A DNA stretch of 38,769 nucleotides from positions 1 to 38,769 of the forward strand of contig NZ_BCXB01000034.1 in the NCBI RefSeq assembly GCF_001894885.1, read 5' to 3'. The notes beneath the pieces are model-generated. The model was not told the DNA's origin. It ran no database searches and saw nothing but the letters and a program-made list of their open reading frames with translations. This stretch comes from Rhodococcus marinonascens NBRC 14363. GTDB taxonomy: Bacteria; Actinomycetota; Actinomycetes; Mycobacteriales; Mycobacteriaceae. Below, in pieces: positions 26,698-36,855 of the stretch (position 1 is its first letter; every line of letters begins with the position of its first letter). The translations under genes and the position numbers were made by a program.

Positions 26698-27564
26698 ATG
26701 GCAAAGAACCCGTTGACTCTGCCGAAACCGCTGGTTGACAAGCTGCCGGTCCGGCTGGGAGGTTCCGGCGACGGCGTGGTCCCAGTGGTGCGCTTGCACG
26801 GAATGATCGCTCCGGGTGGCGCGGGCTTCTCTCGTGTTCTCAGCGCGGAATCCGTAGAGGAGCCTTTGCGGCGGGCGTTCACCACGCGCGGCGCGAAAGC
26901 CGTCGCGCTCTTGATCAACAGTCCTGGCGGTTCACCGACCCAGAGTGAATACATCGCCTCCCGCATCCGGCAACTCGCCACCGAGCACGAAGTGCCCGTG
27001 ATTGCGTTCTGTGAGGACGTCGCGGCGTCCGGTGGTTACTGGCTGGCGTGCGCGGCCGACGAGATCTACGCGACCGCGACCTCCGTCGTAGGCTCCATCG
27101 GCGTCATTTCGGCCGGCTTCGGGTTCTCCGAATTGATCGAGCGCCTCGGCATCGAACGGCGACTTCACTCGGCCGGGGAATCGAAAGCCCGCCTGGACCC
27201 GTTCTTCGTGGAGAAGTCCGAGGATGTCGAGTGGCTGAATACGATCCAGGAAGGCATCCATGACGAGTTCCGCGACTGGGTGGTCGGGCGGCGTGGCGAG
27301 AAGTTGAAGGCAGCTGGGGCGAACTTGTTCGACGGTGACGTCTGGCTGGGCCGCCGCGCCGCCGAACTCGGCATCGTGGATGGCGTCGGCACGCTGCGTG
27401 AGGTTGTGGAGAAGCGGTTCCCCGGCGCGAAGCTCGAAATGACCGAGGCTCGGCGCTCGCTCTTCGCGAAGCTGGGACTGCCCGCCGCCGGCTGGGACGA
27501 GGCCGCCGCCGCGATCGTCGGTGCGGCCAGTGCCCGCGTCGCCTGGTCGCGGTACGGCAGGTAG
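26698..27564 (+). CDS. S49 family peptidase (SppA-like)
   Basis: 288 residues, the short bacterial SppA/SohB form. The nucleophile Ser111 is in EDVAASGGYWLACAADEI and the lysine general base Lys163 in AGESKARLDPF. No N-terminal membrane anchor is visible, unlike E. coli SppA, so a soluble or peripherally bound signal-peptide peptidase is likely. A GSPGG-like INSPGGSPTQS motif is near 74-84. It ends 4 bases before the convergent membrane protein gene. Confidence 0.92.
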   Translation: MAKNPLTLPKPLVDKLPVRLGGSGDGVVPVVRLHGMIAPGGAGFSRVLSAESVEEPLRRAFTTRGAKAVALLINSPGGSPTQSEYIASRIRQLATEHEVPVIAFCEDVAASGGYWLACAADEIYATATSVVGSIGVISAGFGFSELIERLGIERRLHSAGESKARLDPFFVEKSEDVEWLNTIQEGIHDEFRDWVVGRRGEKLKAAGANLFDGDVWLGRRAAELGIVDGVGTLREVVEKRFPGAKLEMTEARRSLFAKLGLPAAGWDEAAAAIVGAASARVAWSRYGR

Positions 27565-33768: not shown

Positions 33769-34107
33769 TTAGTAGACGATGCCCTTGAGGGCCGACACCC
33801 GGACGGCGGGGTGCTCGGGTGTGTCGCCAGCCCACCGGGGGAACGGGATGAAGTGCACGGCGGCAGCGTACAAACCCGACTCGTCGGGAATACCGAACTG
33901 GATCGGGCCGGTCGGGGTGACCGGGAACGCGAGTTCGGGGTCGGTGAGTTCCGCCGTGGTTTCGGGGTCGGCCACCCAATCCATCGGGTCACGGTGGTTG
34001 AGCCACCTAGTGCGGTCCTTGTGTCCGTACACCGTCCAATTGATCCCCCATTCGATCAGTCCGGTGTCGTCATGGGCCGATCCTGCCTCGAGAGCCCCGA
34101 ACAGCAC
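33769..34107 (-). CDS. Hypothetical island protein, 112 residues
   Basis: GTG at 34107 directly follows AGGGGA, a close ribosome site. A soluble Trp/Pro-rich protein with GLIEWGINWTVYG near 17-29 and DPMDWVADPETTAELTDPEL in the middle. No family recognised; the composition resembles small phage or plasmid proteins. It lies upstream of, and on the same strand as, the HTH/coiled-coil gene (83 bp between), so the two may share an operon. Function unknown. Confidence 0.6.
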   Translation of the reverse strand: MLFGALEAGSAHDDTGLIEWGINWTVYGHKDRTRWLNHRDPMDWVADPETTAELTDPELAFPVTPTGPIQFGIPDESGLYAAAVHFIPFPRWAGDTPEHPAVRVSALKGIVY

Positions 34108-34145
34108 TCCCCTGGTGTGACGGGGTGGGGGGAACTACCTCCCGG

Positions 34146-34167
34146 ACTCTCGCGACACTCTCGCGAA
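34146..34167. repeat. Tandem 11-bp direct repeat
   Basis: ACTCTCGCGAC followed at once by ACTCTCGCGAA, 10 of 11 bases identical, lying ~40 bases upstream of the first hairpin leader. Possibly a regulator or iteron-type site. Confidence 0.45.
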
Positions 34168-34190
34168 TGTTTGAACCCTCCGCACCAAGT

Positions 34191-34221
34191 GGAACCAGCC
34201 CGAACTTAGCGGGCTGGTCCC
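34191..34221 (+). repeat. Leader hairpin, copy 1 of the duplicated cassette
   Basis: GGAACCAGCCCG and CGGGCTGGTCCC pair over 12 positions with one mismatch around a 7-base loop. Sixty-two bases further is the start of the first micro membrane protein. The following leader (about 34222-34255) shares AGTCTTCCAC and ACGAATTGCAA blocks with copy 2 at 35858-35942. Confidence 0.75.
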
Positions 34222-34283
34222 ACCTGGCAGTCTTCCACTCAACGAATTGCAACGCACCACCGACACCGACAGAAAAAGGTCCG

Positions 34284-34454
34284 ATGAAGAGGTTCATGAC
34301 ACCCATGTTTGGTGTGCTCCTGGCGTACACCGCCCTTACTGGTGTGCTCCTGGCGTACAACTTCACCCCTACCCGCGCGATCGTCTGGGGCATCGTCTGG
34401 GCGTTCACTGTGTTCTGGCTCGGTCGCAGAGAGCTCAGGAGGATAAACCGATGA
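34284..34454 (+). CDS. Micro membrane protein, copy 1
   Basis: 56 residues from ATG 34284 with AAAAAGG upstream. Two closely spaced hydrophobic segments (~8-27 and ~33-46) with the core VLLAYNFTPTRAIVWGIVW, then a basic tail RRELRRINR. Its paralogue at 35943 shares the VLLAYNFTPTRA-IWGI core. No family name is known to me. The stop overlaps the start of the following HTH gene (ATGA), as in copy 2. A phage or plasmid membrane peptide is likely; function unknown. Confidence 0.7.
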   Translation: MKRFMTPMFGVLLAYTALTGVLLAYNFTPTRAIVWGIVWAFTVFWLGRRELRRINR

Positions 34455-34660
34455 TCAAGTATCTGAGTCGCGGAGAGATCGCAGAGCATCTAGGCCTGAC
34501 CCTGTCCGCTATCAAGGGCTACGACGCTCGCGGCTACCTGCCAGAGGCTGACGCCAAGATCGGCCGTAACTTCGGCTGGCGTGTGGAGACCATCGACGAA
34601 TGGAACGCCAACCGGCCAGGTAGAGGGGCACGAACCGACCTCGACGACACGTCTCACTGA
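34451..34660 (+). CDS. Small HTH protein (excisionase/MerR-like), copy 1
   Basis: 69 residues in an ATGA overlap with the micro membrane protein. SRGEIAEHLGLTLSAIKGYD near 6-25 is a helix-turn-helix, followed by a GYLPEADAKIG wing and GWRVETIDEWNANRPGRGAR, the pattern of small excisionase/AlpA-like regulators in actinophages and integrative elements. It may regulate excision or the cassette itself. A broken copy begins at 36116. Confidence 0.8.
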   Translation: MIKYLSRGEIAEHLGLTLSAIKGYDARGYLPEADAKIGRNFGWRVETIDEWNANRPGRGARTDLDDTSH

Positions 34661-34745
34661 GCGCGTCTCACGTCCACGGTGCACCCCGAACGGGCGCCGG
34701 GTGGGTGAGTGGTCCTACATGTCGCCCTGTGCGTCGCTGTACGGC

Positions 34746-34952
34746 TCAGCTGGGAGGCTCTGCCCTGTTCCTGTCCCTGATCAGCAGCCGGGCATTCACG
34801 CCCACGAGCACCAGGACCACGGCGCCGAGGATCAGCGGCCAGGTCAGCGACCGGCCACCGACTGCCGCGACCGCGACGTTGAGCACGGACAGGCCGAGTC
34901 CCAGCCCGGAGAGCAGCCAGGCCAGTCGAGCCTGTCGGGTCCATCCAGTCAT
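34746..34952 (-). CDS. Two-segment micro membrane protein
   Basis: 68 residues with two membrane segments (~11-30 and ~36-57) and basic ends. Its ATG overlaps the stop of a 31-residue peptide gene (ATGA), with GGAAGGA about 11 bases upstream. No family recognised. The layout resembles holin-like or toxin-type membrane peptides of mobile elements, but no evidence decides. Confidence 0.6.
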   Translation of the reverse strand: MTGWTRQARLAWLLSGLGLGLSVLNVAVAAVGGRSLTWPLILGAVVLVLVGVNARLLIRDRNRAEPPS

Positions 34953-35044
34953 TTCGTTTCGTGTCCTTCCGGGGCCGATAGGCTAGCTACGAGGAGCGGG
35001 GCGGCAACCACTGCCGTCACAGCGGCGCGAACTGACTTCTTCAA
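34949..35044 (-). CDS. 31-residue secreted or membrane peptide, TTG start
   Basis: A TTG at 35042-35044 preceded by AGAGGAA (three bases away) opens a frame that reads MKKSVRAAVTAVVAAPLLVA and then SLSAPEGHETK. It has a signal-peptide-like N-terminus with a basic start and a hydrophobic core. The stop overlaps the next gene's start by ATGA, a strong sign that it is translated. It could be a short exported peptide or a leader. Too short for family recognition. Confidence 0.45.
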   Translation of the reverse strand: MKKSVRAAVTAVVAAPLLVASLSAPEGHETK

Positions 35045-35095
35045 CGGTTCCTCTTTCGTCGGTGATGTTGAGACTGGCCGGGAAGTGATGGTTCT

Positions 35096-35761
35096 ATGCG
35101 TCGAGAACCTCGCAAATCGGACTTTCTTCCCAGTGGGACAATAACGACTGGGGTATGGCTGCGGGTCTCGCGACGCTCCTGGGTGTGGGTAGGCCGAACG
35201 AACCGAGCTGCCGCACCGAGTGCCGTACCCGACTTACCTCCGCAGTCTCAGCCGTCTGCTCGCCTTCAGCACGTGGTGACTGGCCGTGGTCCAGACCCGC
35301 AAACTCAATCTGTGACATACCTCTTGCACCAAAGGTGCGACCACGACAAACCGACGAACGGGCAGAAGGGTAACGGTGACGCGGCAACCTGGTTGCCGCC
35401 GAACAAGTCCTACAGATGCACGTACGTCACACGGCAGGTACAGGTGAAAGCCGAGTACGGGCTGTGGGTGACGCAGGCCGAAAAGGACGCCATCACACGG
35501 GTGTTGTCCGACTGCGGTGCCGCAACCGCGCCTGGTCCGGACCTGATTCCTTCGGTGCCGACCACCACCGTCGCTCCCCCACCACCGCTGCCCGCACCCG
35601 TTCCGCAGGAACCGGCACCGGCGCCGGCACCAAGTGGTGGCGCGGTCTATTTCAAGAACTGCAGCGCAGCGAGAGCCGCAGGTGCCGCACCCATCTACGT
35701 CGGTGAACCCGGCTACCGCGGCAAGCTCGACCGGGACGGCGACGGCGTTGCCTGCGAATGA
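35096..35761 (+). pseudogene. Damaged DUF1524-type secreted nuclease with Excalibur domain
   Basis: From ~35350 the frame matches the C-terminal end of secreted DUF1524 HNH nucleases (GDAATWLPPNKSYRCTYVTR, YGLWVTQAEKDAITRVLSDC). A Pro/Ala linker and an Excalibur calcium-binding domain follow (VYFKNCSAARAAG, then DRDGDGVACE at the end). The N-terminal ~80 codons lack the usual signal peptide and the HNH core (D-H-V-x-x-L), and other frames show scraps, so the N-terminal part appears lost by deletion and frameshift. A nuclease activity is unlikely. This is a second, unrelated DUF1524 relative in the window besides the restriction-linked one. Confidence 0.7.
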
Positions 35762-35780
35762 TCACGCGCGCAGGCCGCTT

Positions 35781-35825
35781 GAGCTGATGCTTAAGCTCCT
35801 CGACGAGATCTCGGTCAAGGACGTA
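35781..35825 (+). repeat. Duplicated 3' end of the small gene at 36292-36561
   Basis: These 45 bases encode ELMLKLLDEISVKDV and match 36514-36558 (ELMLQFLDEIPVKDA) at 40 of 45 positions. They stand alone right after the nuclease stop, directly before the copy-2 hairpin. They mark one edge of the duplicated segment: the upstream part of this gene copy is missing. Confidence 0.8.
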
Positions 35826-35857
35826 GCGCAAGGGCAGACACCGAAAGCGACCGAAGA

Positions 35858-35888
35858 GGGACCAGCCCGCTGTTACCGGGCTGGTCCC
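35858..35888 (+). repeat. Leader hairpin, copy 2 of the duplicated cassette
   Basis: GGGACCAGCCCG and CGGGCTGGTCCC form a perfect 12-bp stem with a 7-base loop, the same arm and loop lengths as copy 1 at 34191. The loop sequences differ (AACTTAG versus CTGTTAC) while the stem is kept. The conserved AGTCTTCCAC and ACGAATTGCAA blocks follow, then the second micro membrane gene. There is no T-run. Confidence 0.8.
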
Positions 35889-35942
35889 CTGGTAAGTCTT
35901 CCACACACGAATTGCAAGCCACACCGACCTGGAAGGTTGACC

Positions 35943-36119
35943 ATGCAGAGGCTCAAAACAGGCCTGATCGCGTATCTCATCGCGTTTACGGTCTTCGCCG
36001 CCGTGCTCCTGGCATATAACTTCACGCCTACCCGCGCGGTCATCTGGGGTATTGCCTGGTTGTTCCTTGCCGTCACAATCATTCGTAAGGAGCTCAAGAA
36101 ACCGCAGGAGAAACAATGA
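35943..36119 (+). CDS. Micro membrane protein, copy 2
   Basis: 58 residues from ATG 35943 (GGAAGGTTGACC upstream). Two hydrophobic segments with the core VLLAYNFTPTRAVIWGIAW, clearly paralogous to the protein at 34284, then a basic tail KELKKPQEKQ. The N-terminal segment differs (RLKTGLIAYLIAFTVFAA). Its stop overlaps the start of a broken HTH copy (ATGA). The core motif and coupling are conserved while the rest has diverged, suggesting selection on the core. Confidence 0.7.
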   Translation: MQRLKTGLIAYLIAFTVFAAVLLAYNFTPTRAVIWGIAWLFLAVTIIRKELKKPQEKQ

Positions 36120-36175
36120 TCAAGTACCCCTGAACCCGAGTGAGATCGCCGACCGAGCGTCTCGGCTAACGGGTT
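36116..36175 (+). pseudogene. Broken copy 2 of the small HTH gene
   Basis: ATGATCAAGTAC matches the start of the intact HTH gene at 34451, but two extra bases cause a stop after five codons (MIKYP). After the shift the frame reads LNPSEIADR, equivalent to the LSRGEIAEH helix of copy 1, and a further small insertion disrupts the next helix. So this HTH is a pseudogene while its upstream membrane partner remains open. Confidence 0.8.
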
Positions 36176-36291
36176 TCGTTAGGTTTCCGCTCAGGTTCCT
36201 GAGGTTGTCGACCAGCCGGATCGGTTTCGGGCCTGCCTCGAGCATCAGCAATGCCCGCTGTAGATCCGCGATGGGAAGTGGAGGTGACCCC

Positions 36292-36561
36292 GTGGGGCAT
36301 CTGGAAGAAATGGCGATGTATGAGCGCATTCACGCCGAGATGGACGGAGACTTCGGCGACCTCGCGGGGATCGAGGGACCGGCCAGTGCCGGCGAGTTCG
36401 GGCTGGCTATCCAGTCCGCGATCGAGGCGGCCTGGGAGTTGAAGCGACCACTGAGCCGTGAACTCCTCGACGATATCCGCGCCGAGGACCCGTTCGATAA
36501 TCCGGTGATCCGGGAGCTGATGCTTCAGTTCCTCGACGAGATCCCAGTCAAGGACGCATAG
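36292..36561 (+). CDS. Small hypothetical acidic helical protein
   Basis: 89 residues from the GTG at 36292, chosen because GGAGGTGA lies four bases before it. Reads MGHLEEMAMYERIHAEMDGD at the start and ends in PVIRELMLQFLDEIPVKDA, acidic and helical throughout. No recognised family. A duplicated fragment of its 3' end is at 35781, so it belongs to the repeated cassette. A terminator hairpin follows. Confidence 0.6.
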   Translation: MGHLEEMAMYERIHAEMDGDFGDLAGIEGPASAGEFGLAIQSAIEAAWELKRPLSRELLDDIRAEDPFDNPVIRELMLQFLDEIPVKDA

Positions 36562-36564
36562 CCG

Positions 36565-36586
36565 ACCTACCCGTTCAGGGGTAGGT
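36565..36586. terminator. Hairpin terminator between convergent island genes
   Basis: ACCTACCC and GGGTAGGT form a perfect 8-bp stem with a 6-base loop, 3 bases after the 36561 stop and between that gene and the convergent HTH gene ending at 36613. Confidence 0.7.
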
Positions 36587-36612
36587 GCGTCAGACCCGAC
36601 GCCGCCCGGTCG

Positions 36613-36855
36613 TCAAGAGTTCAGCGCCCTATAACGACTCTTCGCGTACTCACGCACTTCCTCGGGATCCCAGACCGGAGTCTTACCGAACCTGTGGACG
36701 GGCTGAGGTGCAGGGTTTCGCTTGCCGGGCCGGTTGACATATGACCGCCAGGTGCCCTGTGTGACGTTCAGGAACTTGGAGCACTGCTCGGCAGACCAGA
36801 CGTTGCTGAGCAATCTCGGTTCATCATCGTCATGAGTATTGGTCTTGTCGGTCAT
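36613..36855 (-). CDS. Small helix-turn-helix regulator, excisionase-like
   Basis: 80 residues from ATG 36855 with AAGGGG about six bases upstream. The N-terminal acidic arm is followed by WSAEQCSKFLNVTQGTWRSY near 20-40, a helix-turn-helix, then KTPVWDPEEVREYAKSRYR, the usual tail of excisionase-type or phage regulator proteins. It is the last island gene before the chromosomal DUF5926 gene and may mark the island border. Regulation target unknown. The 36856-37150 stretch beyond holds no other gene I can support. Confidence 0.8.
   Translation of the reverse strand: MTDKTNTHDDDEPRLLSNVWSAEQCSKFLNVTQGTWRSYVNRPGKRNPAPQPVHRFGKTPVWDPEEVREYAKSRYRALNS

Follow-up and report, generated by a model that had tools for sequence, protein, structure and literature searches.

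Positions 1 to 38,769 of contig NZ_BCXB01000034.1 of Rhodococcus marinonascens NBRC 14363 (contig C34 of a 4.92-Mb assembly), referred to here as the window, contain two copies of a small cassette in which a hairpin and a conserved leader precede a small membrane protein with two transmembrane (TM) segments and a helix-turn-helix (HTH) gene. Both copies look like worn relics of a larger module carried by actinophages and prophages. As judged from the sequences of these relatives, the fuller module is composed of a promoter and strong Shine-Dalgarno (SD) sequence, a micro open reading frame (ORF) encoding a peptide with one TM segment, the hairpin, the two-TM protein and the HTH gene. We favor the view that it would be an antisense-RNA-controlled, toxin-like membrane peptide heading a small lysogeny or early operon in the style of type I toxin-antitoxin systems, a reading to which we assign a probability of about 0.55. 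The gene order, the covariation and loop length of the hairpin, the sense promoter with its SD sequence, and the enrichment and placement of an opposed promoter are all computed features of the family.

Hairpins were scored as the best within 130 nt before each distinct two-TM ORF, with a score of at least 22 counted as strong. In the first set of cassettes 41 of 48 carry a strong hairpin, 32 of these 41 with a 7-nt loop, while dinucleotide shuffles of the leaders would give a strong hairpin in only 1.3 of 48. A second set, assembled from another HTH alignment and two Rhodococcus phages (82 loci, of which 28 had already been seen, 17 had no usable two-TM ORF and 7 were repeats), gave 26 of 30 and 21 of 26 for the same two properties, and a third set from named genomes (80 loci, 20 already seen and 28 without a two-TM ORF or at an edge) gave 21 of 32 and 13 of 21. 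Taken together, 88 of the 110 distinct cassettes have a strong hairpin, 66 of the 88 with a 7-nt loop, and stems in the family extend over 9 to 19 positions. At a score of 26 or more the 7-nt loop is found in 31 of 38 cassette hairpins compared with 11 of 121 other hairpins from the first-set loci (Fisher 3e-17). Among third-set loci without a two-TM ORF, 3 of 26 have a 7-nt loop in their best hairpin within 270 nt upstream.

The stem covaries, as the earlier note on this DNA had proposed to check: over 21 chosen stems 91.9% of cells pair, and 88 cells show double changes, compared with 24.8 in shuffled and at most 25 in slid alignments. At E up to 0.06 the resulting covariance model detects this hairpin in 19 of 23 records with a cassette, most of which belong to its training set, and in none of 7 records without a two-TM ORF; in the four records missed (L045, L070, L095 and L134, two of them training rows) the hairpin is present by direct scan. 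Outside the training set the model matches two Rhodococcus phages, Sleepyhead and Whack, where the hairpin was predicted to be; L165 and L166, in which a longer gene is annotated ahead of the HTH gene, give no match. The two window hairpins are the top two matches in the window (E 2e-5 and 3.6e-5, values that have to be read with both copies among the 21 training rows), and because of these matches and the 1.3 of 48 expected from shuffles they are not considered chance structures. A scan against Rfam at the gathering score returned no hairpin match in the window or in 18 loci, the latter giving three tRNAs only.

The strand on which the hairpin acts was addressed with 62 of 78 hairpins, those with an odd loop and a score of at least 20, which were grouped into 33 clusters. 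Within pairs 1 to 9, A.C or C.A mismatches outnumber G.U by 10 to 1 (p 0.012); on the opposite strand such mismatches become G.U wobbles. Eight of these mismatches fall at pair 4, which is A.C in 8 of the 33 clusters and in 5 of 13 from the third set. Loop position 6 is A, giving U at position 2 of the antisense loop, in 20 of 27 (p 1.2e-7) and in 10 of 13 from the third set; in antisense and anticodon loops, position 2 is where U makes the U-turn. Among the nine bases that follow the hairpin there are on average 1.36 T on the sense side and 3.73 on the opposite strand (1.38 and 3.43 in the third set). The leader beyond the hairpin has a conserved A-N3-T motif, which on the opposite strand is a −10-like element, and when the 50 nt beyond the hairpin were compared with shuffles by a two-hexamer score, the antisense strand gave a sigma70-like signal (mean z 1.08, p 4e-7, 33 clusters) and the sense strand of the same 50 nt did not rise above shuffles (z 0.07, p 0.79). 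In 23 of 33 clusters the distance between the end of the antisense −10 and the hairpin base is 4 to 9 nt, with a peak at 7 to 8 nt, so that the expected start of the antisense RNA is the base of the hairpin. With the same parameters the third set, fetched later, gave z 1.41 (p 5e-5) for the antisense and z −0.16 (p 0.2) for the sense strand, with the −10 end at 4 to 9 nt in 12 of 21. The hairpin is, from these sequence comparisons, probably the 5′ stem-loop of an antisense RNA and better read on the opposite strand.

What this RNA would control is the micro ORF, which in the relatives lies directly upstream of the hairpin and encodes 26 to 53 residues (38 cassettes), with a single hydrophobic stretch and, in most cases, a basic tail behind it. 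In 34 of 42 cassettes 3 to 10 nt separate the micro stop codon from the start of the hairpin (range 0 to 18). A script that called short ORFs ending at the hairpin found one in 44 of 48 cassettes of the first set and 28 of 30 of the second, and with a hydrophobicity filter a micro ORF was found in 17 of 21 of the third; the micro ORFs called by script in L100, L124, L214 and L234 do not look like TM peptides. After removal of these four and of near-identical upstream regions, 51 cassettes remained, in which the computed sense promoter of the micro ORF is strong (mean z 2.54, p 1e-9), often of the form TTGNNN-N17-TATAGT, and the SD sequence is often GGAGGTGA. Type I systems are recognized by a small hydrophobic peptide (under about 60 residues, one TM segment) and by the peptide having its own promoter and strong ribosome binding site; the relatives show the former, and computation predicts the latter. 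The earlier note had named a regulatory, an immunity or a toxin-type module as possibilities; the toxin-type module is the best reading, although the toxin candidate is this smaller ORF upstream of the hairpin and not the membrane protein adjoining the HTH gene. Short inverted repeats were seen by eye between the sense −10 and the SD sequence in L059, L056, L104, L081, L078 and L074, so that the peptide mRNA may itself start with a stem-loop. A fusion of the micro and two-TM ORFs by programmed frameshifting or readthrough was discarded, as the frame differences are spread 13, 13 and 16 over 42 cassettes with no constant frame; in 21 of the 29 cassettes with unequal frames the two-TM reading frame remains open upstream to beyond the micro stop codon.

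In the model we propose, the strong promoter would give an mRNA for the one-TM peptide, the presumed toxin, followed by the two-TM protein and then the HTH regulator. The opposed promoter just beyond the hairpin would start an antisense RNA at the hairpin base, which would therefore begin with a stem-loop complementary to the loop of the mRNA hairpin. Contact between the U-turn-like antisense loop and the mRNA hairpin loop would begin the pairing, and pairing would prevent the peptide mRNA from being translated or cause it to decay; this pairing may also limit the genes downstream. The HTH protein would act on integration, excision or the promoter of the module itself. We infer in this way the antisense RNA and its 3′ end, the toxicity of the peptide and its neutralization, as well as the parts played by the two-TM protein and the HTH protein. 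Transcription of the trio has been reported from RNA-seq, with data deposited as GSE121829 for the Sbash lysogen and GSE121959 for Kita infection. Genes 32 to 34 of Mycobacterium phage Sbash, which in its record span the HTH, two-TM and micro ORFs, make up a leftward operon that is expressed in a lysogen (PMC6426596), and Kita genes 36 to 38, the same trio, are expressed early in infection (PMC6426606). The hairpin lies between genes 34 and 33 in Sbash and between 38 and 37 in Kita; the portions of these two papers that were available give the trio without a function and without mention of a hairpin or antisense RNA.

Several results weigh against this reading. Strong hairpins are missing in 22 of the 110 cassettes, and the third set has fewer of them, and fewer 7-nt loops, than the earlier sets. 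The antisense promoter idea arose from the first two sets, leaving the third as its sole later test. At pair 10 the wobble bias favors the sense strand, with eight G.U or U.G and one A.C, and in the micro promoter region the other strand likewise scores slightly above shuffles (z 0.38, p 0.014). On the 3′ side of the putative antisense RNA, 19 of 51 cassettes have at least four T among the 9 nt that follow the first hairpin, 11 of 51 have later terminator-like sites (4 after shuffling), and 7 of 51 have an antisense ORF that spans at least 20 codons and is preceded by an SD sequence. None of 26 micro peptides compared with Pfam toxin families scored above cut-off; Hol_Tox was reached by one of the 26, at E 0.046 and 14.0 bits against a cut-off of 23.3, and the other weak single matches were to non-toxin families, the best being ComGE at E 0.002.

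This lack of curated toxin matches also fits an operon with the same antisense mechanism in which the membrane peptide is not toxic and serves, for example, superinfection exclusion or lysogeny maintenance, and so does expression of the trio in the Sbash lysogen and early in Kita infection. Prophage membrane proteins can act as exclusion factors, as in the example of Charlie (PMC6426606, in the part available), although the defense membrane proteins described there, Sbash gp31 and CarolAnn gp43, are larger and have four predicted TM segments. A very strong SD sequence and promoter under antisense control would better suit a peptide that is costly when it leaks, and we regard a non-toxic operon as a distinctly weaker candidate, at perhaps one chance in five. 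Slightly less probable again is that the hairpin works on the sense mRNA as an attenuator, a processing element or a 3′-end-stabilizing element that sets the ratio of the micro to the two-TM and HTH products, the antisense promoter signal being incidental. Its closeness to the micro stop codon, the C-rich, G-poor stretch that follows it and the wobbles at pair 10 would all agree with such a role, as would the complementarity of the leader to the micro SD sequence and 5′ untranslated region in the subfamily of the window (L004a, L056, L059 and L061; −28 to −30 kcal/mol, z −2.7 to −3.9). Against it, the sense side has no T tract (1.34 T in 9 nt after 41 cassette hairpins versus 2.32 after 121 control hairpins), which also led to the rejection of a classical sense-strand terminator, and both the placed antisense promoter and the A.C at pair 4 would be left unexplained. 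Nor does the pairing of leader and SD sequence extend to the family: over 38 cassettes the SD is paired to the leader at 0.36 versus 0.29 with shuffled leaders, and a further comparison of the 38 gave p 0.24 and 0.64. General sequestering of the micro SD is thus not supported, a first swap comparison that looked positive was not upheld, and pairing is strong in the subfamily of the window.

The palindrome could also be a DNA site, either a recombinase core or an operator, and not an RNA element. Tyrosine-recombinase core sites have a comparable 7-bp spacer with 12-bp arms, and the adjoining HTH protein is excisionase-like. The arms nevertheless vary widely between phages with pairing kept, though the HTH proteins are 51 to 71% identical to that of the window; the position is fixed behind the micro stop codon, and the two strands are not equivalent in the pair-4 mismatch and in loop base 6. 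We judge a tyrosine-recombinase core site unlikely, and a DNA site of any kind improbable, the least likely of the explanations. RNA-primed replication, as described for cluster A prophages in the available part of PMC7157519, was dropped; several cassette phages have nearby integrases, and the micro ORF is protein-coding.

Within the window, sequence and repeat analysis agree with the earlier note on two cassette copies with the same order. The features are as follows.

34189 to 34223, putative functional strand minus (antisense 5′ stem-loop in intact relatives): hairpin of copy 1; the stem has 14 positions, one of them an A.C mismatch, and the 7-nt loop is AACTTAG.
34229 to 34234, minus strand: AGTCTT (AAGACT on the minus strand), at the place of the relatives' antisense −10, copy 1.
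34247 to 34252, minus strand: TTGCAA, resembling the relatives' −35, 12 nt from the −10 (17 nt in relatives L056, L060 and L004a), copy 1.
34284 to 34454, plus strand: two-TM small membrane protein of copy 1, 56 residues; the gene contains a 20-nt repeat at a spacing of 30 bp.
34451 to 34660, plus strand: HTH gene of copy 1, 69 residues, PHROG_597, predicted MerR/excisionase-like fold.
35858 to 35888, strand not assigned: hairpin of copy 2, perfect 12-bp stem, loop CTGTTAC.
35895 to 35900, minus strand: AGTCTT, presumed −10 remnant of copy 2.
35912 to 35917, minus strand: TTGCAA, presumed −35 remnant of copy 2, spacer 11 nt.
35943 to 36119, plus strand: two-TM small membrane protein of copy 2, 58 residues.
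36116 to 36133, plus strand: start of the broken HTH gene of copy 2, five codons and then a stop.

A 12-bp stem with a 7-base loop had been claimed for both hairpins. This is exact for copy 2 (12 of 12 pairs); the core of copy 1 at 34191 to 34221, GGAACCAGCCCG-AACTTAG-CGGGCTGGTCCC, has 11 of 12 stem positions paired, the exception being the A.C mismatch, and its pairing extends outward to the limits listed above. The leader blocks, AGTCTTCCAC at 34229 and 35895 and ACGAATTGCAA at 34242 and 35907, were located in both copies, and the two membrane ORFs do share the core AYNFTPTRA-x-x-WGI (49% identity, E 1.2e-13); a search of the 4.92-Mb assembly at E up to 0.001 found no membrane-ORF matches beyond these two. 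The HTH frame starts in both copies at an ATGA overlap (34451 and 36116), is open to 34660 in copy 1, and ends in copy 2 as MIKYP*, in line with the claim that the second gene is broken. Inside the first membrane gene, at 34310 to 34359, the exact 20-nt repeat with 30-bp spacing is an in-frame duplication of GVLLAY-T/N.

That hairpin, leader, membrane protein and HTH gene form a conserved unit of actinobacterial mobile elements, as had been supposed, is borne out by the relatives, yet the cassette in the window cannot be called complete. The micro ORF present directly upstream of the hairpin in relatives is absent from both copies, and the hairpin itself is better read on the other strand. Where relatives L056, L060 and L004a have TTGCNN-N17-GAGNNT on the minus strand, the window leader blocks offer AGTCTT at the −10 and TTGCAA in the −35 region, with spacers shortened to 12 and 11 nt; the antisense promoter score of copy 1 (WIN1) is only z 0.54, and the antisense promoter of the window copies appears likely to have been lost. 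A consensus promoter scan of 33950 to 36700, able to detect the relatives' sense promoter and too strict for their antisense promoter, found none (0.3 expected by chance). We regard both copies as probable relics because a sense promoter of the relatives' type is lacking and the antisense −35/−10 spacer is shortened. Tandem duplication is not unique to the window, as locus L004, a prophage-like locus of relative G022, carries two cassettes with micro ORFs in tandem.

Around the copies, 35781 to 35823 and 36514 to 36556 share 43 nt at 91% identity, such that the end of the ORF at 36292 to 36561 recurs just before the second hairpin; the duplicated unit would thus have included this ORF or been pasted beside it. 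A second, distant PHROG_597-type HTH gene (36613 to 36855, minus strand, E 1.9e-12) adjoins the relic copies. Between the copies, a plus-strand ORF at 35096 to 35761 ends in ...GDRDGDGVACE and has PHROG matches (best 5.7e-13) to its C-terminal 39 residues. Further away, a tRNA-Glu (ctc) is predicted at 26807 to 26897 inside the long ORF 26698 to 27564, and may be a false positive or an overlapping gene.

Elsewhere in the same genome, a third pair of two-TM and HTH genes lies on contig C36 at 1164 to 1722 (L021), by eye beside lipoprotein-like and phage-like ORFs; it has no model hairpin match in an own-genome search that scored 150 of 4096 candidates. On contig C11, a family-like hairpin of 33.4 bits at 36511 to 36543 (L137) stands at the end of what by eye is a Ku-like gene, facing a convergent ORF, and is probably an ordinary terminator. 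Of the additional matches from the model searches as a whole, neither L137 nor L162, the latter in a tail-gene region, shows the cassette, and L138 is a further weak match at E 0.11. A micro-peptide query against the genome gave no match, a result that shows little.

The two proteins that remain in the window differ in their distribution. The membrane protein family is narrow, with 17 proteins of which two are from the window itself and the named ones come from Rhodococcus or Prescottella; among genomes it is present in 3 of 28 from the genus and 4 of 401 from the family, both counts including the window's own, and it also occurs in 6 viral contigs. A tblastn search of phages and plasmids found no close relatives at E up to 1, and none were confirmed in a first scan of genome contigs. 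The co-occurrence that the earlier note wished to see checked does hold: the HTH gene is found in 6 of 6 viral contigs encoding the NFTPTRA membrane protein and in both other genomes of the genus with it (G018 and G022). More broadly, 52 of the 102 loci inspected from phages and viral contigs have a small two-TM ORF that runs into or directly borders the start of the HTH gene, including Gordonia phages Vasanti, Ebert, Goib, Huffy, TimTam, Eudoria and BENtherdunthat, Mycobacterium phage Sbash, and Rhodococcus phages Sleepyhead and Whack. Catfish has one additional small gene between the two-TM and HTH genes, and Avani, Gsput1, Banquo and KayaCho are examples of an HTH gene without a small two-TM ORF.

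The statement that no family was known proved half right, for the HTH protein matches the PHROG_597 profile over residues 1 to 67 of 69 (E 1.4e-25), and tblastn finds relatives of it in 669 of 50,697 phage records, 480 of them from Mycobacterium and 117 from Gordonia phages; 80 of 252, 80 of 132 and 80 of 173 relatives were retained in successive samplings. Its predicted structure is nearest to MerR and excisionase domains (Foldseek best E 0.009; no match at 0.001 or better), with the excisionases RdfS (8dgl, E 0.018) and GIsul2 (8c3t) as structural neighbors. The protein falls under the Pfam HTH_17 cut-off (14.3 bits, cut-off 27), and the hints of an excisionase come from similarity of the predicted fold and from phage annotations such as “excise”. 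It is referred to here as an AlpA/excisionase-like (Xis-like) protein.

Among known systems the closest parallels lie in type I loci such as par of plasmid pAD1 (Fst/RNAII), in which two RNAs converge on a shared terminator hairpin. These loci likewise have a small one-TM peptide with a charged tail, a strong SD sequence, an opposed antisense promoter and U-turn loops. The actinophage module differs in that the antisense RNA would begin at the hairpin, that the peptide is followed by two-TM and HTH genes, and that the peptides have no Pfam toxin match above cut-off. In ColE1 RNAI/RNAII and CopA/CopT, 7-nt or U-turn loops make the first contact between complementary hairpins, as is proposed for the module; these systems control plasmid replication, whereas here the target would be the peptide mRNA.

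Titles and abstracts among the literature matches listed contain no description of this module. The chances seem to us about even that it constitutes a type I toxin-antitoxin family across actinobacteriophages and prophages. Its antitoxin RNA would begin with a covarying hairpin, with a 7-nt U-turn loop, that lies immediately after the stop codon of the toxin. The toxin gene would be the first of an operon that also encodes a second membrane protein and a regulator resembling excisionases, and control of the peptide would thereby be linked to the lysogeny decision. According to the available part of a 2025 paper, type I systems were previously found only in Proteobacteria, Firmicutes and Tenericutes, to which that work adds a cyanobacterial case (PMC12390103). 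If the proposal is true, it would place a type I family in a phylum outside that list, adding an RNA-controlled peptide system to the Actinomycetota, and would give a function to genes that are mostly labeled hypothetical or membrane protein in many sequenced actinophages.

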